Origin: a virus
Virus record (IMG/VR): IMGVR_UViG_3300044998_000886
Span: 1-20,248 of that record
Reading direction: 5' to 3' (one strand)
DNA length: 20,248 nucleotides
Position 1 is the first letter of the stretch. Each line of letters opens with the position of its first letter. Below the pieces are notes generated by a model that searched no databases, had not been told where the DNA came from, and saw nothing but the letters and a program-made list of their open reading frames with translations. Shown piece by piece: positions 2,809 through 18,371 of this stretch. Position numbers and translations under genes: made by a program.

Positions 2809-3849
2809 ATGATTGCTTCTGACCTTTCCGGCCTTCCTGATCAAACCTGCCATTTTGTGAGGCGGTTGCAGGCATTGGGGATTGATCGGATCAGGATCCA
2901 CGGCCTTTTTGTGTTGTTAGGTCTGAATGCTGGCACACCTCGCTCGCAAGACGAAATTGAGAGCCTGTTCCAGAATCTCGATCAGGTCGTGCCGATCGAC
3001 CGCTCCAGGAACATCGACGATGTTGTCGGCGAATTTTATGACGGATACGAGCGTGAACTCAATGAGCTATGCTTCAGGAGTGGTGCGGCCTTCGAATTTC
3101 GCCAGATCAATGTTCCCCCTGTCGAGAAGAACTTTGCCATCGTCTATTTGAGGGATGAGGGCATTCTGCCAACGGATGTCCGCTCCATCCGCAAGCTCGC
3201 CGATAGTTTCGATTTGTTCGACGCCTTTGTCTTGGCCGTCGGCAAATCGACCGCAAACAAGGGCCGAAGCTTGCTCGACGCTTTCTGCTGCGGCGTGTTC
3301 CAAATGCAATTGCATGCACAAATGGACATCAAAGGCGCTCAACAAATATCCCTACTGCTCAGAAACTTCCGCCCTCTCGTTTACGGGCAATGCCTGGACG
3401 CTCTTTCATTCAACCGCATCGATTACTTCCTTGGCCTCGAAGATGGGCAAATTGCGCTGATTCCGTTGATGTCAGCCTTGGACACGAACTTTGCGCAGCA
3501 GATGTGGGGTTATCAATCACGTCTTTTCTACGGGAAGGATGGCTCGCCGATCGATGAAATAGAAGCGCTTGATATCCAGCACTGGCACGCCTGGATCGTG
3601 AAAAACGCAATAGAATTTTACGATCAGTATGGGGCCCAGATTCTACCCTTCAGCTCATCGCGAGCGGTGCTTTCTGAGCTGCCTCCGTGGACCAGCCTCG
3701 CCTCAGATTTCGAGTCCTGCGATCGCTACATCTATGAGGTGTGGGGTTACGCGTGGGACAGTTTGGGTAATAAAATCAGCCAATTGGAGTTCAGATCCAT
3801 ACTCGTCTATATCATCTATTCGTCGTTGGCGGCTGCGATAGAACAGTGA
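2809..3849 (+). CDS. Hypothetical protein, unrecognised, lower G+C
   Basis: I do not recognise this 346-aa protein. It reads as one uninterrupted frame from ATG 2809. No signal peptide, Walker motif, zinc-finger or obvious nuclease motif is visible. It looks soluble and mostly helical, with aromatic-rich stretches (for example WGYQSRLFY and HWHAWIVKNAIEFYDQYG) and a hydrophobic tail ILVYIIYSSLAAAIEQ that could be one buried or membrane helix. G+C in sampled lines is about 50%, clearly below its neighbours, which suggests separate acquisition. There is no good Shine-Dalgarno before 2809, so the start is uncertain. It stands alone between the IS66 copy and the convergent recombinase operon, a common place for cargo or defence genes; that role is only a guess. 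Confidence 0.6.
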   Translation: MIASDLSGLPDQTCHFVRRLQALGIDRIRIHGLFVLLGLNAGTPRSQDEIESLFQNLDQVVPIDRSRNIDDVVGEFYDGYERELNELCFRSGAAFEFRQINVPPVEKNFAIVYLRDEGILPTDVRSIRKLADSFDLFDAFVLAVGKSTANKGRSLLDAFCCGVFQMQLHAQMDIKGAQQISLLLRNFRPLVYGQCLDALSFNRIDYFLGLEDGQIALIPLMSALDTNFAQQMWGYQSRLFYGKDGSPIDEIEALDIQHWHAWIVKNAIEFYDQYGAQILPFSSSRAVLSELPPWTSLASDFESCDRYIYEVWGYAWDSLGNKISQLEFRSILVYIIYSSLAAAIEQ

Positions 3850-3914: not shown

Positions 3915-4292
3915 CTACCCAAACACCGCCTCATCCTGCCCGCCCCACGGCAGTTCCGCCGCTGCCGCCATGTCCTTGATCGATACGGCGGGCGGCACGC
4001 GACCCAAAAGCAGCTTCTCCAGTACGACGGGCGCTAGATAGGCCAGCTTCAGGACACGGCCGGCATAGGCCGGTGTTAGATCTTCGGCCTTGGCAATGTC
4101 GGCTAGCGTCGCCGCTGCTCCGCTTTCCAGCTTCCGCCGCCAGCTCCATGCCTTGGCGACCGCCTTCAGCACATGTGGATCGACGCCACCGGTGTCCGGC
4201 ACGATGTCCGTCGGCGGAACGATCTTCGGCCGCCCGTTGCGCTTGCGGATGGTGAGCGGGATGAACACCCGCATGGTAGTGGGTGCGCTCAT
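3915..4292 (-). CDS. HTH protein matching the C-terminal domain of large serine recombinases
   Basis: This 125-aa protein starts at ATG 4292 and overlaps the recombinase stop by ATGA (4289-4292). Its start MRVFIPLTIRKRNGRPK, the WSWRRKLESG segment (about 70-80), the helix-turn-helix TLADIAKAEDLTPAYAGRVLKLAYLAP (roughly 84-110) and the following LLLGRVPP closely resemble the tail that many alphaproteobacterial and phage serine recombinases carry after their zinc/recombinase domain (from memory of that family). I infer it supplies DNA binding to the recombinase in trans. It could be a natural gene split or the result of an old frameshift. It is the last gene of the operon. Confidence 0.75.
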   Translation of the reverse strand: MSAPTTMRVFIPLTIRKRNGRPKIVPPTDIVPDTGGVDPHVLKAVAKAWSWRRKLESGAAATLADIAKAEDLTPAYAGRVLKLAYLAPVVLEKLLLGRVPPAVSIKDMAAAAELPWGGQDEAVFG

Positions 4293-5608
4293 GCTGCTTG
4301 TCTCCGTTCGGGCGTGACCATTTCGCGAATGACTGACCCCAGCCCCTCGGTGCGCAGGTCGACCGCAAGGCCGTCGGCGCTGACCGTGACCCGTTCGATT
4401 AGAAGCCGGGCGATGCGGGCCTGCTCGGCCGGGAACAGCGATTCCCACAAGCCATCAAAGCCCGCCAGCGCGGTGACCACATCCTGCTGGTCGATGTCCG
4501 GTGCAGCCCGGCGCGCTGCCTCAACGGCCCGTGCCGCGATTTCCGGGGTGCGCAGCAGCGACCGGATGTGCTGGACGACGGCGCCTTCGACCATGCCGGC
4601 ATTTAGGCGCACAAAGCTGTCGCGCCCTTCGCAGGCCCGGTTCCTGATTGCATCCATCGAGGTGTAATACCGGTAATGCCGGCTGCCCTTTTTCGTCACC
4701 GTCGGCGTCATGGCGATCCCGCGATCGGTGAAGATCAGACCTTTCAGCAGCGCCGGCGTCTGGGTGCGGGTGTTGGCCGCGCGCTGGCGCGGGCTTTCCT
4801 GCAGGATGGCATGGACCTGATCCCACAGTTCAGGCGTGACGATGGCTTGATGCTCCCCGGGATAGCTGGTCCCCTTGTGGACCGCCTCGCCGAGATAGAG
4901 CCGGTTGCGCAGCAGCTTGTAGAGGAACCCCTTGTCGATCGGCTTGCCGCGCTTGTTCAGGGTTCCCTTCGCCACCAGTTCGCGGGTCAGCAGGGTCGCC
5001 GATCCCAGCTCGACAAAGCGCTGGAACATATGCCGGACCGTCGCCGCCTCGGCCTCGTTGATCACCAGTTTGCGGTCGACGACATCGTAGCCCATCGGCA
5101 CGAACCCACCCATCCACATGCCTTTGGCGCGGCTGGCAGCGAACTTGTCGCGGATGCGTTCGCCGGTTACCTCGCGTTCGAACTGGGCGAACGACAGCAG
5201 GATGTTCAGCGTCAGCCGTCCCATGGAGGTCGTGGTGTTGAACGCCTGCGTCACCGACACGAACGTCACGTTGTTGCGGTCGAAGGCCTCGACCAGCTTG
5301 GCAAAGTCCATCAGCGAGCGCGACAGGCGATCGATCTTGTAGACGACGATGACGTCGACCAGACCGGCCTCGACATCTTCGAGCAGGGCCTTGAGCCCGG
5401 GCCGGTCGAGCGTGCCGCCCGAGAACCCGCCGTCGTCGTAGCGTTCACGCATGCAGACCCAGCCTTCAGCGCGCTGGCTGGCGACATAGGCCTCGCAGGA
5501 CTCGCGCTGGGCGTCGAGCGAGTTGAACTCCATGTCCAACCCTTCTTCGCTCGATTTGCGGGTGTAGACGGCGCAGCGCAGGCGCCGCCGGGGTACCGTG
5601 TCGTTCAT
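4289..5608 (-). CDS. Large serine recombinase (site-specific integrase/resolvase family)
   Basis: This 439-aa protein has an N-terminal resolvase domain (about 10-160). YTRKSS carries the likely catalytic serine S19, followed by LDAQRESC, VYKIDRLSRS, and the helix SFAQFEREVTGERIRDK. A Recombinase (PF07508-like) domain follows, with GYDV, LLRNRLYLGEAVHKG and AIVTPELWDQV. The last part (LLKGLIFTDRG...SRHYRYYTS) corresponds to the zinc-ribbon region but lacks obvious cysteine pairs, as in related proteins. The usual C-terminal HTH tail is absent and is instead encoded by the next gene, through an ATGA overlap. The ATG at 5608 is chosen because it overlaps the upstream DUF2924 stop (ATGA, 5605-5608). 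It probably mediates integration or excision of the element; a resolvase role is possible. Confidence 0.93.
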   Translation of the reverse strand: MNDTVPRRRLRCAVYTRKSSEEGLDMEFNSLDAQRESCEAYVASQRAEGWVCMRERYDDGGFSGGTLDRPGLKALLEDVEAGLVDVIVVYKIDRLSRSLMDFAKLVEAFDRNNVTFVSVTQAFNTTTSMGRLTLNILLSFAQFEREVTGERIRDKFAASRAKGMWMGGFVPMGYDVVDRKLVINEAEAATVRHMFQRFVELGSATLLTRELVAKGTLNKRGKPIDKGFLYKLLRNRLYLGEAVHKGTSYPGEHQAIVTPELWDQVHAILQESPRQRAANTRTQTPALLKGLIFTDRGIAMTPTVTKKGSRHYRYYTSMDAIRNRACEGRDSFVRLNAGMVEGAVVQHIRSLLRTPEIAARAVEAARRAAPDIDQQDVVTALAGFDGLWESLFPAEQARIARLLIERVTVSADGLAVDLRTEGLGSVIREMVTPERRQAA

Positions 5609-6066
5609 GCCGCGTCCTTTCGTTCCCGCAGGCCAAAGAACCGGTAGCCGTTCCACTGCGTGCCGGTGATGTCCCGGGCGATGGCCGACAGCGACTTGTA
5701 GCGTCGCCCCTGCCAATCGAAGCCGTCCTTCAGCACGGTGATGACGTGCTCGGTCCCGTTCCATTCGCGCACGAGGCGCGTGCCGATGACCGGGTTGCGC
5801 GGGTCGGCGATGACCGACTTCCGCACCTTCTTGCCCTCGACCTCGTCGGCCAGGGCGTCGAGCAGTTGGCGCACCGGCTTCGACAGGCCGCCGAAGGTCA
5901 GCTCCTGGATCCTGTAAGCCAGACGCTGCTCGAGGAACGAGCGGCTGTTGTTGGGCGCCTCTGTCTCGAACAGCTTTGCCCATTCGGCCTTCAGTTCCCT
6001 GACCGACATGTCCTTCAGCGCCGCCAGCCTGGCGAGCACCGGCGCATTGTCATCCTGTTTGTGCAT
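5605..6066 (-). CDS. DUF2924 domain protein
   Basis: This 153-aa protein shows the DUF2924 pattern: LARLAALKDMSVRELKAEWAKLF at the start, RSFLEQRLAYRIQELTFGGLS in the middle, then PVIGTRLVREWNGTEHVITVLKDGFDWQGRRYKSLSAIARDITGTQWNGYRFFGL, whose final part resembles the DNA-mimic or DNA-binding folds used beside recombinases. DUF2924 genes are regularly found immediately upstream of large serine recombinases in alphaproteobacteria. The biochemical role is unknown; a recombination directionality or accessory factor is a reasonable guess. The ATG at 6066 is preceded by GGAGG, overlaps the upstream stop (TAATG), and its own stop overlaps the recombinase start. Confidence 0.88.
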   Translation of the reverse strand: MHKQDDNAPVLARLAALKDMSVRELKAEWAKLFETEAPNNSRSFLEQRLAYRIQELTFGGLSKPVRQLLDALADEVEGKKVRKSVIADPRNPVIGTRLVREWNGTEHVITVLKDGFDWQGRRYKSLSAIARDITGTQWNGYRFFGLRERKDAA

Positions 6067-7739: not shown

Positions 7740-7789
7740 TTTAGCAGATCGGCGTGCAGCTACGCCTGATTCTGTTCAAGGAGTCCCCC

Positions 7790-8971
7790 ATGTCCTCGAT
7801 TGCCACTATCATTCGCAAAACCTCCACCCCCACCCTCCGTGCCTATTTTGAGCACAGCGGCATTGGCCTGCCTGCAAATATCGACTGGTCGGTCCCCGAG
7901 CCGGAAATCCTGCCGCCGCTTCTGAAGGCGGTCGATGAACTGACCGATACCGAAAAGGCTCGCCTGGCGCTCGACGCCGGTCGGATCGGCGACCTGGTCA
8001 GCGAAGTTGGCCAGATCGCACTTTACAGCGTTGCCGAAGACAAGGCCTTTCTTGATAGCCTTGGCGGCGCGCATGACCGCGCATTCTGGATGTTTCTCAA
8101 TCATCCGGACCGCTTCCGCCGCGCCGAGGAGGTCCGCTACACCGACGAACGTCGCCGTGGGCGTTCGTGGGCGGGTTTCATTGTTGCCGCCGATCAGCCG
8201 TTGAACAAGGATCCGGCCGCTCTCGACGCATTCAAGTCGGCGCTGCGCGAATGTTTCGCTTCGCCCAACATCCACATCGATATCTTTGATCGCCGTCGCC
8301 CCACCTTCGACGGCGAGGATTGCGAACTGATCCAGATCGCGGTGTACCGCGAGGGCTTGCCGGATGATGTCCTGGAGTTTGACGCAGGCGATCTGGTTCG
8401 CCGCGTGCGCAGCCCGGTATTCGAGGCCGCCCTGACCTATGAACCCGCCACCGGCGTGGTCGAGGTGGTCGCGAACGACAGCAAGAGCCGTGAAGCCATG
8501 GCCCGGATCATGGTGCGCGATCTGCTCCAGATCGAGTTCACCAGCGAGAAACTGCCGTCCCGCAACTATGATCTGAGCCCGCTTCAACAGCACCATGCTT
8601 TCCCGCGGGACGCTGCCGACGGAATCGAGTCCGTCACCTTGAAGCAGCTGCGCCTTATGCCGATGGACAATCAGGGTCATCGCGTGACGCTGGAATGCAT
8701 GCGCGGCAGCGAGGAGACCATCTGGCAGATGGCTGCGGGGCATTTTGGCGACCGTAATCCGCTCCTCGGCGGCTGGGTGGTCACGCAGGCAAAGCTCACG
8801 ATCGCCTTCCTGCCCAAGGGAGATGCGCGACGTGGACGTGTTTTGTCGCTGACGATCACGATGCCGCACGGCTGCAATCTCAAGGACCTGACGCCGGAAG
8901 AGCAATTGATCGGCGAGAAATACCTGCGCCGCTGGGGCATCCTGTCCGGGGACACTGGCGTCGATGATTGA
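7790..8971 (+). CDS. Hypothetical protein, first of an overlapping pair
   Basis: I do not recognise this 393-aa protein. ATG 7790 is preceded by AAGGAG (7778-7783), so the start is firm; a GTG at 7754 is in frame but less likely. It is soluble, with no membrane segment and no Walker or nuclease motif that I can name. The N-terminal third is helical (LPPLLKAVDELTDTEKARLALDAGRIGDLVSE). The middle has a conserved-looking AFWMFLNHPDRFRRAEEVRYTDERRRGRSWAGF block. The C-terminal part is beta-rich with TIAFLP and GRVLSLTITMP. It overlaps the next gene by 8 bp and sits downstream of XRE-ImmA, so it may be effector or target of that regulatory pair. That is inference. Confidence 0.75.
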   Translation: MSSIATIIRKTSTPTLRAYFEHSGIGLPANIDWSVPEPEILPPLLKAVDELTDTEKARLALDAGRIGDLVSEVGQIALYSVAEDKAFLDSLGGAHDRAFWMFLNHPDRFRRAEEVRYTDERRRGRSWAGFIVAADQPLNKDPAALDAFKSALRECFASPNIHIDIFDRRRPTFDGEDCELIQIAVYREGLPDDVLEFDAGDLVRRVRSPVFEAALTYEPATGVVEVVANDSKSREAMARIMVRDLLQIEFTSEKLPSRNYDLSPLQQHHAFPRDAADGIESVTLKQLRLMPMDNQGHRVTLECMRGSEETIWQMAAGHFGDRNPLLGGWVVTQAKLTIAFLPKGDARRGRVLSLTITMPHGCNLKDLTPEEQLIGEKYLRRWGILSGDTGVDD

Positions 8972-9896
8972 TCAGGCGTCCGCCCGGCTGCTCATGACGA
9001 TTGCGGAAACGCCCGGTGCGAGGATCGCGGGATCGGTGCTCAGCGATTTCCATCCGAAGCACGGCAGGCAGCTGATGGAAGCCAATCTGCTGATGCCACA
9101 AGGGGAGACGCTCGCGGCGCCGCTGGATCTCGATCATGACGATGAGCCGATGCGGCTGATCTGGTCCAGCGAACATGGTGGCTATGGCTATTACAGCCCG
9201 GTTGCGGACTGGCTGCCGGTGACCCCCGACCGTCTGCGCATGTTCGGTATCAACATGCCGGTGCTGCTGGCGCGGATGCTGACGCAGCTTGAAATCGTGG
9301 GCGGGAACGAACCCCTTGCACTGGTTCCGGATGCGGTCTGGGAAATCGGCAATGTTCGCCTGCCAGCACGCGGCAAGCCTGTGCCGTTGTGGATTGCCCG
9401 GCGATTGTCCGATCCGGCTTGCTGGGCCGCAATCGTTGCAGCCACGCGGTTGCGCCCCGCACCGGGGCTGAGAATCGTGTTGTGTACGACGCCCACCGTC
9501 CGCCTGCCAAAGAAGATGTTCGAGGGTCATGAGATCGTCAGCGTCGGCGATGTGGCCGACCACGAGGATGGGATTGCTCTCGACCCTGCGCTGTTGGCAG
9601 CTCGGATCACGACCGGCACGTTGCCGGCGGATATGCCGATTTCCATGTCTGCTGACGGAGGATCTGTCACGGTACGCGGGAAACGCTACACCTTCACCGG
9701 CCCGAAGCAGCGGGCCATAATCCGACATCTCTATGAAGCCTGGGAGAACGGGGAGCCCGAATGCCTGACCGACGCGGTGCTGGAGGCGGCCGACTGCGCC
9801 AATAGCGTGAACACGCTGACCAAGGCCTTTTCCGGCCGAAAGGACTGGCAGGAGTTCATCAAGGTCGAGGGTGGTCGCTGCTGGATACAGTGCTGA
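8964..9896 (+). CDS. Hypothetical protein with possible C-terminal winged helix
   Basis: This 310-aa protein overlaps the previous gene by 8 bp and ends just before a strong terminator, so the two form one transcript. The C-terminal 80 residues (about 228-310: SVTVRGKRYTFTGPKQRAIIRHLYEAW, then CANSVNTLTKAF and VEGGRCWIQC) look like an OmpR-type winged helix, suggesting DNA binding. The N-terminal two-thirds (for example LMTIAETPGARIAGSVLSDFHPKHGRQLMEANLL, which itself resembles a helical DNA-binding or adaptor region) are not familiar. The start is ATG 8964; the coupled overlap supports it. Function is unknown. It could be a regulator or the sensing partner of the 393-aa protein. Confidence 0.75.
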   Translation: MIDQASARLLMTIAETPGARIAGSVLSDFHPKHGRQLMEANLLMPQGETLAAPLDLDHDDEPMRLIWSSEHGGYGYYSPVADWLPVTPDRLRMFGINMPVLLARMLTQLEIVGGNEPLALVPDAVWEIGNVRLPARGKPVPLWIARRLSDPACWAAIVAATRLRPAPGLRIVLCTTPTVRLPKKMFEGHEIVSVGDVADHEDGIALDPALLAARITTGTLPADMPISMSADGGSVTVRGKRYTFTGPKQRAIIRHLYEAWENGEPECLTDAVLEAADCANSVNTLTKAFSGRKDWQEFIKVEGGRCWIQC

Positions 9897-14336: not shown

Positions 14337-15103
14337 TGTTGGACTTCAATCACCGTCCCGCATTCGGCGATTGTCTGAACGCCCTCGTCGATAGCCATCT
14401 CGTGGCAGATAACGCCGCGCGCAGCCCCCGGGATTATCTCGGCGGCTCGCGGGTCGGCGTTTCCTGCGAGCGCGCGCTCCAGTTCGAGTTCACGGCCACG
14501 CCCAGGGACGAAAATGCGGACTTCTCGGGCCGAACCCTGCGGATTTTCGCGATGGGTCACGCCCTGGAAGATCTGGCCATTGCCTGGCTGCGCGGTGCCG
14601 GCCTCGATCTGTTCACCCGCAAAGGCAATCGTCCGGACGGGGAGCAGTTCGGCTTTTCGGCTGCCGGTGGGCGCTTGCGCGGTCATGTCGACGGGATAAT
14701 CGCCGGCGCTCCTGCAGCGCTCGGACTTCGTGTCCCTGCGCTCTGGGAGTGCAAGACCATGAACGCGAAGAACTGGCGCGAGACAGTGTCGAAGGGCGTT
14801 GTGCTGTCGAAGCCAGTCTATGCAGCCCAGATCGCGCTGTACCAGGCCTATATGGAAGGCAGCGTGCCGCGCATTTCGGCCGCACCTGCACTGTTCACCG
14901 CCATCAACAAGGACACAGCCGAACTCCACCACGAACTGGTCCCGTTCGATGCAGACCTGGCCCAGCGCATGAGCGACAAGGCCGTGCGGATCCTTTCTGC
15001 CACCGATGCCGGGGAATTGCTGCCGCGCTTCACCCGGACACGCGAGCATTTCGAGTGCCGCTTCTGCTCGTGGGCCGTCCGTTGCTGGGAGATGCCCCAG
15101 TGA
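14336..15103 (+). CDS. Cas4-like PD-(D/E)XK nuclease with Fe-S cysteines
   Basis: This 255-aa protein has a PD-(D/E)XK core, visible as GHVDGII (about 118-124) and WECKTMNAKNW (about 137-147). Four cysteines match the Cas4/AddB 4Fe-4S arrangement: C44 (SCERAL) and C241, C244, C250, spaced CX2CX5C at the C-terminus. Phage Cas4-like exonucleases of this type make recombinogenic ssDNA ends, which suits the Sak4 and SSB neighbours. No CRISPR array or cas gene is nearby, so this is not an adaptation module. It begins in TGATG with the zinc-finger gene and its stop overlaps the primase-helicase start (GTGA). Confidence 0.85.
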   Translation: MLDFNHRPAFGDCLNALVDSHLVADNAARSPRDYLGGSRVGVSCERALQFEFTATPRDENADFSGRTLRIFAMGHALEDLAIAWLRGAGLDLFTRKGNRPDGEQFGFSAAGGRLRGHVDGIIAGAPAALGLRVPALWECKTMNAKNWRETVSKGVVLSKPVYAAQIALYQAYMEGSVPRISAAPALFTAINKDTAELHHELVPFDADLAQRMSDKAVRILSATDAGELLPRFTRTREHFECRFCSWAVRCWEMPQ

Positions 15104-17385
15104 CCGAAGACAACATCGTCCACTTCAACCCCTGGCGGGATTTCAATGATGCCGCATCGCTGGAAGAGCTGTTCCTCGAGCCTGATCCGGCCCAGATCGC
15201 TGCCTTTTTCGCTGTCGTATTCGACTATTGTGACGGCCTGATCCCGGTCCGCAGCTTCATCGACAAGGGTCAGGGCATCGAGGGCAAGCCCCATAACATC
15301 TGGATCGATGCGGATGCGTCCGCACCGGAAAAGCTCACGACCTTTGCCCATTGGGCAGGCCGCGAGGGCGCGGCGGTTTACGTGATCCCCGGCACGGTGG
15401 CGGAGAGCGGCCAGGCAAAGTCTGCCGACATCACCGCGATGCAGGCGATCGTCGTCGACATCGACACCGGCGATATCGGTGCCAAGCTCACCCATCTGAC
15501 CCGGCATCTGGGCGACCCCACCCTGATCGTGGAAAGCGGAGGGCGGACACCCGGGGGCGCGCACAAGCTCCACGTGTGGTGGAAGCTGTCGGAGCCTGCG
15601 ACCGATGCCGACGTCGAGCAGGTCTGCGCTCTGCGCGGTGCCATTGCCGCCAAGGTGGCCGGCGACACCCATTTCCGCTCGGCGCACCAGCCGATCCGTG
15701 TCCCGGGCACCATCTACCATAAGGGTGGCAGCCAGCGCATGGTGCAGATCCTGCAGCACGCCGCCAAACGTGAGGTGGACCTTGCTGATTTTGCCGAGAT
15801 GGTCTCGGCCATGCCGCCCATGCCCGGGATTGGCGCGGCTTCTGCCTCATCGCCAGAAAAGCCCGCTCTCGCCGATGTGCTGACGACGCCGGTCCATGAA
15901 GGCGGGTCTGATGCCTGGTCGCGGTTCGAGGGCGCAAGCGCCGCCATCGGTCACTACATCCGCCAGGTCCATGATGGCCGCATCAGCCCGGACGAAGGCT
16001 GGGAGGCGATCTGCCAGTACAATGCCGCAATGCTGCGGCCAAGCTGGCCGCTCGATCGCCTGAAGGCGGAATCCGATCGGCTGTGGCGCTTGCATGTCGA
16101 GCGCAACGGCCCGCCGCTGCTTCGTTCTGCTGAAACCGCACGCCGGGCAGACATGCCTGCCTTCACCTTTGGCGCGTTGCTGGATGACGCCAGCCCGATG
16201 CCCGCTGACATCGTCGCACCCCGGCTTCTGACACCCGGCGGTCTGCTCGTGCTCGGCGGCGCCCCCAAGGTGGGCAAGAGCGATTTTCTGATCTGCTTTC
16301 TCGCGCACATGGCTGCGGGCGTGGCATTTCTTGGCTTCACACCGCCGCGCCCTCTGCGGATCTTCTATCTCCAGGCAGAGATCCAGTACCACTATCTGCG
16401 CGAGCGGTTGCAGGCCATCCGGCTCGACCCCGCCGTCATTGCCGCCGCCCGTGACAACCTGGTGGTCACTCCAAAGCTGCGTCTACTGCTCGACGAGCGC
16501 GGCGTCGCGCTGGCCGTCGATGCCATCAAATCCCATTTCCCGGGCGATCCGCCGGACATCATCTGCATCGATCCGATCCGCAACGTGTTTGACGGCGGGC
16601 CCGACGGCGGTGGCGAAAACGACAACAGCGCCATGATGTTCTTCCTGCAGCAGCGGGTCGAGCAGCTGTGCGACGCCGTCGCCCCTGATGCCGGGGTGAT
16701 CCTCGCTCACCACACCAAGAAGCTGAACAAGAAGCAGGTCGCCGAGGACCCGTTCCAGGCGCTTTCCGGCGCCAGTGCGCTGCGTGGTTTCTATACGTCC
16801 GGCATCATCATGTACCGACCGGACGAGGACATGCCGGCGCGCAGGCTCGAGATCGAGCTGCGCAATGGTCCAGCGATCGGCCCGATGCTGGTGGACAAAC
16901 GCGGCGGGCAATGGGTCGAGCTCGACGCAAGCAGCGAACGACTGATCCGCAAGGATGTGGGTGCCCGGCTCGATGCTGAGCGGGTGCGCAAACATGATGT
17001 CATTCTCGGCATCCTGCTCGACGAAGCCGCTGCAGGGCGGCTCTATACGTCGCTGCAGTTCGCGGAGAAGTTCGAGAACAAAGGCGGCCTTGGCGGGACC
17101 TATACCATCAGGGACCGCATCTCGGTCCTGGCGACCAAAGGCTACATCAAGTTTGTCCGCGATGGCTCGCCCTACGGCATGGCCAGAACGACATCGAAGT
17201 TCGGCTATCTCTGCACCGAAGGGATGATCATTCCCGGGAATGGCGAAACGGCGGATCCCGACACCGGTGAAATATCCCCCGCGATGCTGGAGGTGCTGCC
17301 CAGCCACTTCAAATGCCCCCAGTCAGGCGGATCCCTGCCGGTCGAGAACCCCCGGGTCTGGGTCTATCCGGAGGACGAGCAATGA
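15100..17385 (+). CDS. Primase-helicase fusion (AEP-type primase plus RecA-like ATPase)
   Basis: This 761-aa replication protein joins two activities. The N-terminal half has AEP/RepB-type primase features: VVDIDTGD near 118, ESGGRTPGGAHKLHVWWKL near 145-163, and PIRVPGTIYHKGG near 198-210. The C-terminal half is a RepA-like RecA-fold NTPase (AAA_25 type): Walker A GAPKVGKSD near 387-395, IFYLQAE near 422, IICIDPIRNVF near 487, and LAHHTKKLNKK near 534, then ALRGFYTSGI. About 120 more residues form a winged-helix-like tail. It probably primes and unwinds element DNA. GTG 15100, overlapping the nuclease stop, is the most likely start. It is the last gene before the repeat-rich region, which may be its origin. 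Confidence 0.85.
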   Translation: MTEDNIVHFNPWRDFNDAASLEELFLEPDPAQIAAFFAVVFDYCDGLIPVRSFIDKGQGIEGKPHNIWIDADASAPEKLTTFAHWAGREGAAVYVIPGTVAESGQAKSADITAMQAIVVDIDTGDIGAKLTHLTRHLGDPTLIVESGGRTPGGAHKLHVWWKLSEPATDADVEQVCALRGAIAAKVAGDTHFRSAHQPIRVPGTIYHKGGSQRMVQILQHAAKREVDLADFAEMVSAMPPMPGIGAASASSPEKPALADVLTTPVHEGGSDAWSRFEGASAAIGHYIRQVHDGRISPDEGWEAICQYNAAMLRPSWPLDRLKAESDRLWRLHVERNGPPLLRSAETARRADMPAFTFGALLDDASPMPADIVAPRLLTPGGLLVLGGAPKVGKSDFLICFLAHMAAGVAFLGFTPPRPLRIFYLQAEIQYHYLRERLQAIRLDPAVIAAARDNLVVTPKLRLLLDERGVALAVDAIKSHFPGDPPDIICIDPIRNVFDGGPDGGGENDNSAMMFFLQQRVEQLCDAVAPDAGVILAHHTKKLNKKQVAEDPFQALSGASALRGFYTSGIIMYRPDEDMPARRLEIELRNGPAIGPMLVDKRGGQWVELDASSERLIRKDVGARLDAERVRKHDVILGILLDEAAAGRLYTSLQFAEKFENKGGLGGTYTIRDRISVLATKGYIKFVRDGSPYGMARTTSKFGYLCTEGMIIPGNGETADPDTGEISPAMLEVLPSHFKCPQSGGSLPVENPRVWVYPEDEQ

Positions 17386-17430
17386 TCTTCGGGCCGGCCA
17401 TTCCGGGCTACGCATGGGCACGCACAATCC

Positions 17431-17662
17431 AGTTGGGGAAGTTGCGGACCATTTCCGCAACTGGGTCCGCACATGTACCCATTCCCCCGCTCGGATACGC
17501 AAAATCCAGTTGTGGACGATTTTCCCAACTACCCCCGCACGCCTTCGCACGGCCACGCTGTGCCACCCGCAATCCAGTTGCGGTCGGGTTGGCCATTCCC
17601 AACTGCCACAACTTCAATTTTTGGCAGTTTTCCAAGGAGTTGAATCTCACCCCAAGTTGTGG
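17431..17662. repeat. Cluster of AGTTGNGG repeats, candidate origin or control region
   Basis: At least ten copies of AGTTGNGG or its complement fill this non-coding stretch, for example at 17431, 17440, 17508 and 17576 on the plus strand and at 17454, 17522, 17596 and 17606 on the minus. Three copies share an extended CGCA-AATCCAGTTG start (around 17421-17436, 17498-17512, 17569-17580). Two units have the same 9-5-9 dyad geometry: AGTTGCGGA/TCCGCAACT (17440-17462, perfect) and AGTTGTGGA/TTCCCAACT (17508-17530, imperfect). AACTGCCA/TGGCAGTT (17601-17629) and CCACAACTT/AAGTTGTGG (17606-17662) add further dyads. It follows the primase-helicase gene directly, which is where a cognate origin would lie. 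An iteron role is inferred, not shown. Confidence 0.55.
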
Positions 17663-17671
17663 GTGTGAAAC

Positions 17672-17715
17672 CCCCATCCTAAAGGATGGGGACGCACCCC
17701 GTGGGGTGTGCGTCC
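17672..17715. other. Two adjacent strong hairpins
   Basis: CCCCATCC-TAAA-GGATGGGG (17672-17691) is a perfect 8-bp stem with a 4-nt loop. It touches a second stem: GGACGCAC at 17690-17697 pairs with GTGCGTCC at 17708-17715, with CCC...GGG inside and a small bulge. No T-run follows, so this is not a classical terminator for the upstream operon. The shape recalls subterminal hairpins of IS200/IS605-type elements or a nicking or replication structure. No transposase is present. Alternatively it may attenuate transcription towards the RuvC gene. Confidence 0.45.
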
Positions 17716-17831
17716 ACCTTCAGAATGGGAACCCGCGGGCCGTCGCTCCAAGGCAGCAGCGCGCACCACCCTGATCCCTGATCCCGATCTTTTCGCAAAC
17801 ATCATTCAGACATTTCCGAACGGAGACCATC

Positions 17832-18371
17832 ATGGCTTCGAATACCCTCGCTTTGCCTTCAGGTATTGCACCCCCTGCAACAACTGCGGGGCTGATCGCC
17901 CCGTGTGCCACCATGCTTGCGCTGGATCTTGGGACCACCACCGGTTGGGCCATGCGCCCGACAGCGGGTCCGATCGTCAGTGGCACCCTCAGCCTCAAGC
18001 CTTCCCGCTACGACGGTGGCGGCATGCGGTTCGTCCGGTTTCGCAAATGGCTCGATCAACTGGATATTGACGCCGGGCCGATTGCGACCGTCCACTTCGA
18101 GGAGGTCCGACGCCACCTCGGGACCGATGCCGCCCACATCTATGGCGGCCTGCTTGCAGTGCTCACTGCCTGGGGCGAGGAATCGGGAATTGCCTATCAG
18201 GGCGTTCCTGTCGGCACGATCAAGCGGTTCATCGCCGGCAAGGGCAATGCCGACAAGGCAGCCGTGATCGCGGCAGTTCGCGCAAAGGGTTTTGCCCCTG
18301 CCGACGACAACGAGGCTGATGCTATCGCCATCCTGCTCTGGGCTATCGAGACCCGTGGAGGTGTCCGGTGA
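17832..18371 (+). CDS. RuvC-like Holliday junction resolvase
   Basis: This 179-aa protein has the RNase H-like RuvC fold: LALDLGTTTGWA with D32, HFEEVRRH with E90/E91, and DDNEADAIAILLWA with acidic residues 158-163, matching the acidic catalytic set of RuvC-type resolvases. It probably cleaves branched DNA made during replication or recombination of the element. GGAG precedes ATG 17832. An internal ATG at about residue 28 starts just before the first motif and is an alternative. The first 28 residues (MASNTLALPSGIAPP...) are Ala/Pro-rich and unlike host RuvC. The stop overlaps the next gene by GTGA. Confidence 0.88.
   Translation: MASNTLALPSGIAPPATTAGLIAPCATMLALDLGTTTGWAMRPTAGPIVSGTLSLKPSRYDGGGMRFVRFRKWLDQLDIDAGPIATVHFEEVRRHLGTDAAHIYGGLLAVLTAWGEESGIAYQGVPVGTIKRFIAGKGNADKAAVIAAVRAKGFAPADDNEADAIAILLWAIETRGGVR

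Follow-up and report, generated by a model that had tools for sequence, protein, structure and literature searches.

Related prophages appear to exchange repeatedly a repeat array, a candidate replication origin, as a matched cassette with the tail of its predicted reader protein

The window, a viral record of 20,248 bp, carries from left to right (Pfam and PHROG assignments) an IS66 element, a serine recombinase, regulators and a Sak4-like ATPase, followed by a helicase, a Cas4-like nuclease, a primase-helicase, a repeat array, and RuvC-like, DUF6378 and HNH genes. The IS66 element (transposase and TnpB-like Orf2; 1–2506) occupies the left end of the record. The large serine recombinase (4289–6066, minus strand) is found beside a DUF2924 gene, the two likely representing an integration module, while three sizeable ORFs (346, 405 and 310 aa; within 2809–3849 and 7754–9896) have no Pfam match. 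Sphingobium sp. DEHP117 encodes a protein 98% identical to the primase-helicase of the window and, because terminase and portal genes are located a few kb downstream of its gene, the window element is most likely a tailed prophage. The DEHP117 prophage also encodes a ParB-like domain fused to a DNA methyltransferase (L178, 4504–5739), upstream of its terminase genes. No full-length isolated phages were found as relatives; Wolbachia phage WO gave partial matches only and, judged from annotation only, has no intergenic array after the matching gene.

No gene is present between the primase-helicase stop (17385) and the RuvC-like gene (17832), where the ORFs crossing the array are overlapping chance frames, in agreement with an earlier note on this DNA that had described a gene-free stretch. 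Seven exact copies of AGTTGNGG lie within 17431–17662 (232 bp), five on the plus and two on the minus strand; the eighth exact copy in the window is outside the array, at 8560. This word is expected 1.86 times in the whole 20 kb window, and none of 100 shuffles reached eight copies. Counting TTCCCAACT variants gives nine sites in all, five forward and four reverse, and the dense two-orientation array of about ten copies described earlier is thus real. The extended core attributed to three of the copies, AATCCAGTTGNGG, does occur three times, always in the array, and three AATCCAGTTG extensions are found here and are absent from the rest of the record. The window showed no second array. The features of the locus are:

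15100–17385, plus strand: putative initiator of 761 aa with PrimPol, RecA-fold helicase and winged-helix parts (Pfam, PHROG, AF2)
16980–17385, plus strand: exchangeable C-terminal domain, approximately aa 628–761 (AF2, fold alignment, mutual information, drop in DNA identity)
17431–17438, plus strand: site 1, AGTTGGGG
17440–17447, plus strand: site 2, AGTTGCGG
17455–17462, minus strand: site 3, AGTTGCGG
17508–17515, plus strand: site 4, AGTTGTGG
17523–17530, minus strand: site 5, AGTTGGGA
17576–17583, plus strand: site 6, AGTTGCGG
17597–17604, minus strand: site 7, AGTTGGGA, in a slot occupied in a minority of relatives only
17606–17613, minus strand: site 8, AGTTGTGG
17615–17634, no strand: AT-rich stretch separating site 8 from site 9, which may serve as unwinding element (AT content in relatives)
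17655–17662, plus strand: site 9, AGTTGTGG
17672–17691, plus strand: hairpin 1, CCCCATCCT/AGGATGGGG (inverted repeat; paired stems in relatives; DNA fold z −3.4)
17690–17715, plus strand: hairpin 2, GGACGCACCCC/GGTGTGCGTCC (inverted repeat, DNA fold, pairing in relatives)

Two dyads of 9-5-9 geometry, also reported in the earlier note, are both present, one perfect (sites 2 and 3; 17440–17462) and one imperfect (sites 4 and 5; 17508–17530), but they are oppositely oriented copies of one site over a fixed 23-bp span and not conserved stems. The suggestion that a hairpin-recognising primase acts on the repeats is not supported, although such a primase may possibly act on the two hairpins at 17672–17715.

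Comparison with 160 loci from viral and genome collections, mostly Alphaproteobacteria, revealed a gene-free stretch at the same place in nearly all loci with enough sequence, and an array there in nearly all of ~150 relatives, with a repeated word that differs by lineage. The exact AGTTGNGG words of the window are missing from most relatives; nearly every locus repeats its own word (AGTTGxGG, AGTTGGGA, AGTTTCGG/AGATTGGG, ACTCATATGAG, ACTCCTC, AGGACGA, AGAATCC, and AGATTCC in 11 copies), and an exact long-pattern scan of viral contigs gave no match. Conservation of repeat spacing, proposed earlier as a check, was found in the commonest layout (44 nonredundant loci, selected by an anchor that includes site 9), where sites lie at nearly fixed offsets from the hairpin and forward sites are spaced 9, 68, 68 and 79 bp apart. 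Sites 4, 5, 6, 8 and 9 keep their slot in essentially all 44 loci (site 8 within 1 bp), sites 1–3 move together in about seven, and slot 7 frequently lacks a site. The betaproteobacterium Eleftheria terrae has a more distant homologue (L167), whose locus also shows CCAACTG/AGTTGGC copies and hairpins. In a further genome sample, with loci kept out of rule-making, repeats were identified in 8/9 (besides L084's own locus), most with a hairpin, including AGAATCC repeats beside proteins only 60% identical; L176, one of the nine further homologues, has no array.

The stretch between sites 8 and 9 has a mean AT content of 0.60 in 43 relatives, compared with 0.30–0.47 in other bins of the array. Hairpin centres served as the reference for counting pairing, the MAFFT alignment of this region being out of register; hairpin 1 stays paired in ten distinct stem versions among relatives, a count biased by selection of stems for perfect pairing. 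Three hairpin arms (a, b and c) can be recognised across 17672–17737 and its counterparts. In most relatives arm c repeats a, and arm b can pair with either, giving two exclusive structures and an alternative long hairpin; arm c has been lost in the window's clade. Pairing maintained although both arms change, and a strand that folds better than shuffles (z −3.6), would fit a structured non-coding RNA with the repeats as its helices. However, no Rfam family was found at gathering score in the window and 12 relatives, and the copies change in concert (identity 0.86 within a locus versus 0.67 for the same slot across classes). A forward AGATTGGG can also face a reverse AGTTTCGG, breaking the stem and keeping both sites, and the word follows a domain of DNA-binding type (see below), making an RNA very unlikely.

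The 761-aa protein encoded immediately upstream matches Pfam AAA_25 only (E 3.8e-19) and PHROG 13004 and 239 ('DNA primase/helicase'); phmmer against the PDB gave no match. In Foldseek searches with the AF2 model, the N-terminal part matched the S-2L PrimPol AEP domain (E 3e-8) and, second, the RSF1010 RepB' primase (3h20; E 2e-7), while the middle part matched RecA-fold ATPases. A winged helix is predicted at approximately aa 620–705, containing residues 652, 668 and 696, which track the repeat word. The C-terminal domain had no Foldseek match under E 0.001 and aligned (VIA-align) at Z 5–6 with many wHTH domains, a common arrangement, such that the likeness is to generic winged helices; the fold matches listed for it include no origin-binding domain of a phage or plasmid initiator such as P4 alpha. 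On these models, a single chain unites AEP PrimPol, RecA-fold ATPase and wHTH; together with a swappable specificity cassette, this appears to be a new combination of known parts.

DNA of the window and of relative L006 is ~95% identical until ~400 bp before the primase-helicase stop, only 52–77% identical from there to ~300 bp after it, and 95–96% identical again over the next 200 bp. The two also differ in repeated word (AGTTGNGG in the window, AGATTGGG in L006). In most of 12 pairs the identity drop is likewise confined to the C-terminal domain and array, with recovery on both sides; as several pairs share one event, independent exchanges were estimated from the tree, which gives 7–10 changes of word class. 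What is exchanged spans ~700 bp, comprising the C-terminal domain and the array, and has its right border near the hairpins. These comparisons indicate that related prophages repeatedly swap the array and the tail of its predicted reader protein as a matched cassette. Absence of the repeats from close relatives, named in the earlier note as grounds for rejecting an origin, would mislead if taken literally: L006 indeed lacks a AGTTGNGG array, but has an array of a different word together with a different C-terminal domain. The swap pairs also bear on whether the array could be a packaging (pac/cos) or partition site, which the terminase genes and ParB-like/methyltransferase protein downstream in L084's related prophage might suggest; flanking genes of these pairs are mostly 80–95% identical while the array word changes, and the terminase genes lie ~4 kb or more downstream, leaving such a site extremely unlikely.

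The repeat word varies with the winged helix. Residue 652, at the start of its second helix (AF2), is Leu in 17/17 AGTTG loci and Asn in 27/27 AGTTT/AGATT loci (44 nonredundant), a rule that holds through repeated word switches. In a wider set of 98 loci, Leu652 accompanies 16/16 AGTTG arrays and Asn652 31/31 AGTTT/AGATT arrays, the sole exception being L104 (Leu652 with another word). Phylogenetically independent pairs, taken from a tree built on residues 1–620, agree in 6/6 (p 0.03) and 7/7 (p 0.016) cases. Mutual information with word class peaks at columns 696 and 652 of 761, both within the winged helix, and nearly all of the twenty highest-ranking columns are C-terminal to residue 628. 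Array similarity has a rank correlation of 0.58 with similarity over residues 640–705 and 0.26 over residues 1–620; between word and C-terminal similarity, with the rest of the protein controlled, the partial rank correlation is 0.57 (0/999 permutations as high). As the word both co-varies and is co-exchanged with this domain, binding of the array by the primase-helicase through its C-terminal domain is strongly implied.

Co-variation speaks to binding specificity and not to function, and the array lies between two co-directional genes; the protein might thus bind there solely for transcription control (autoregulation or of the RuvC operon), with the origin elsewhere. We regard this as unlikely, given that no sigma-70-like promoter or terminator-like site was found in 17000–18200 and that the array, lying 3′ of its binder's gene with many sites and an AT-rich element, resembles SaPI/PICI origins (PMC6092414, PMC7581432). 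SaPI/PICI pri-rep-ori, P4 alpha and RSF1010 offer parallels on which the array is very probably the replication origin of the prophage. The candidate origin of the earlier note gains support from the presence of an array in nearly all relatives, its near-fixed spacing in the commonest layout, and a word that changes and is exchanged together with the winged-helix domain. The GC-skew check adds weak support, with a switch consistent in 22/24 loci but small, among loci that share homologous genes.

We consider it highly probable that the array is an origin read by the upstream protein. Sites of the AGTTGNGG type, nine in total and lying in either orientation, would be bound by the C-terminal winged helix, and several initiator copies would assemble at the fixed site spacing. 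By analogy with known replicons, DNA would then open at the AT-rich stretch separating sites 8 and 9, the RecA-fold domain would be loaded as helicase, and the N-terminal PrimPol would prime, perhaps on the pair of hairpins 3′ of the sites. Together, the domain and the array would constitute a single exchangeable specificity cassette of ~700 bp.

In SaPI/PICI, the origin is directly 3′ of the initiator gene and consists of several short iterons with an AT-rich element, the iterons being read by the initiator's C-terminal domain (PMC7581432, PMC6092414). Here, an array of short sites similarly lies immediately 3′ of the proposed initiator gene, and co-variation and co-exchange suggest that the C-terminal domain sets iteron specificity. 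In SaPI/PICI two iteron sets flank the AT-rich region; here an AT-rich stretch has eight sites on one side and a single site as second 'set' on the other (8 + 1), with sites in both orientations. SaPI Rep helicases are of DUF927 or D5 type (D5_N/Primase_Cterm), unlike the RecA-fold ATPase here, for which AAA_25 is the only Pfam match. P4 alpha, as summarised in PMC4234260 (citing Ziegelin & Lanka; Yeo et al.), combines primase and helicase with an origin-binding winged helix that recognises repeats, as proposed for the window protein, but it has a Toprim-type primase like those of bacteria (PMC4234260), whereas an AEP primase and RecA-fold ATPase are predicted here. In pRN1, a single chain, ORF904, comprises PrimPol, helicase and wHTH; the putative origin lies 3′ of the gene and shows the lowest conservation, between flanks that are conserved (PMC4234260). 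The window matches this organisation in chain, position and conservation, but has an iteron array and a RecA-fold ATPase rather than the SF3 helicase and single large stem-loop (100 nt) without iterons of pRN1. RSF1010 (IncQ) has RepA, RepB' and RepC, which together supply helicase, AEP primase and iteron-binding activity, an oriV, and hairpins (ssiA/ssiB) used for priming (PMC4234260). The models suggest a comparable set here, with a RepB'-like AEP primase, RecA-fold helicase, iteron array and hairpins, but in one 761-aa chain instead of three separate proteins. RSF1010 iterons are direct repeats, unlike the sites here, which occur in both orientations. The window system resembles these replicons but is a member of none: it joins in one chain an AEP primase and RecA-fold ATPase otherwise seen in combination as separate RSF1010 proteins.

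We found no described replicon for this large prophage group, and the locus offers a putative origin-initiator pair ready for experiment, in which natural domain swaps already test specificity and provide a short candidate protein-DNA recognition code to check. It also gives a route to asking why phage replicon specificity diversifies (incompatibility, satellite piracy) and a basis for orthogonal replicons in alphaproteobacteria. Lambdoid O proteins also have type-specific origins. A broader reading is tentative, a real possibility rather than an expectation: in a widespread, mainly alphaproteobacterial prophage family, winged helix and origin would form an interchangeable cassette that recombination at conserved borders repeatedly replaces as a whole, with residues 652, 668 and 696 as a readable recognition code. 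If true, exchange would keep co-infecting relatives or satellites from using each other's initiator. Prophages sharing a genome differ in class in 5/6 pairs (p 0.49; six genomes only).

Four relatives (L079, L104, L141 and L163) carry a further hairpin, GACGACGGCGGCC...GGCCGCCGTCGTC, at ~+300 after the primase stop and before the RuvC-like gene; it is not evident in the window and matched no Rfam family in the loci searched. Its loop, GTACCGCCAAGCAC, is conserved, its stems differ yet pair, and it resembles an RNA or DNA element not described before.
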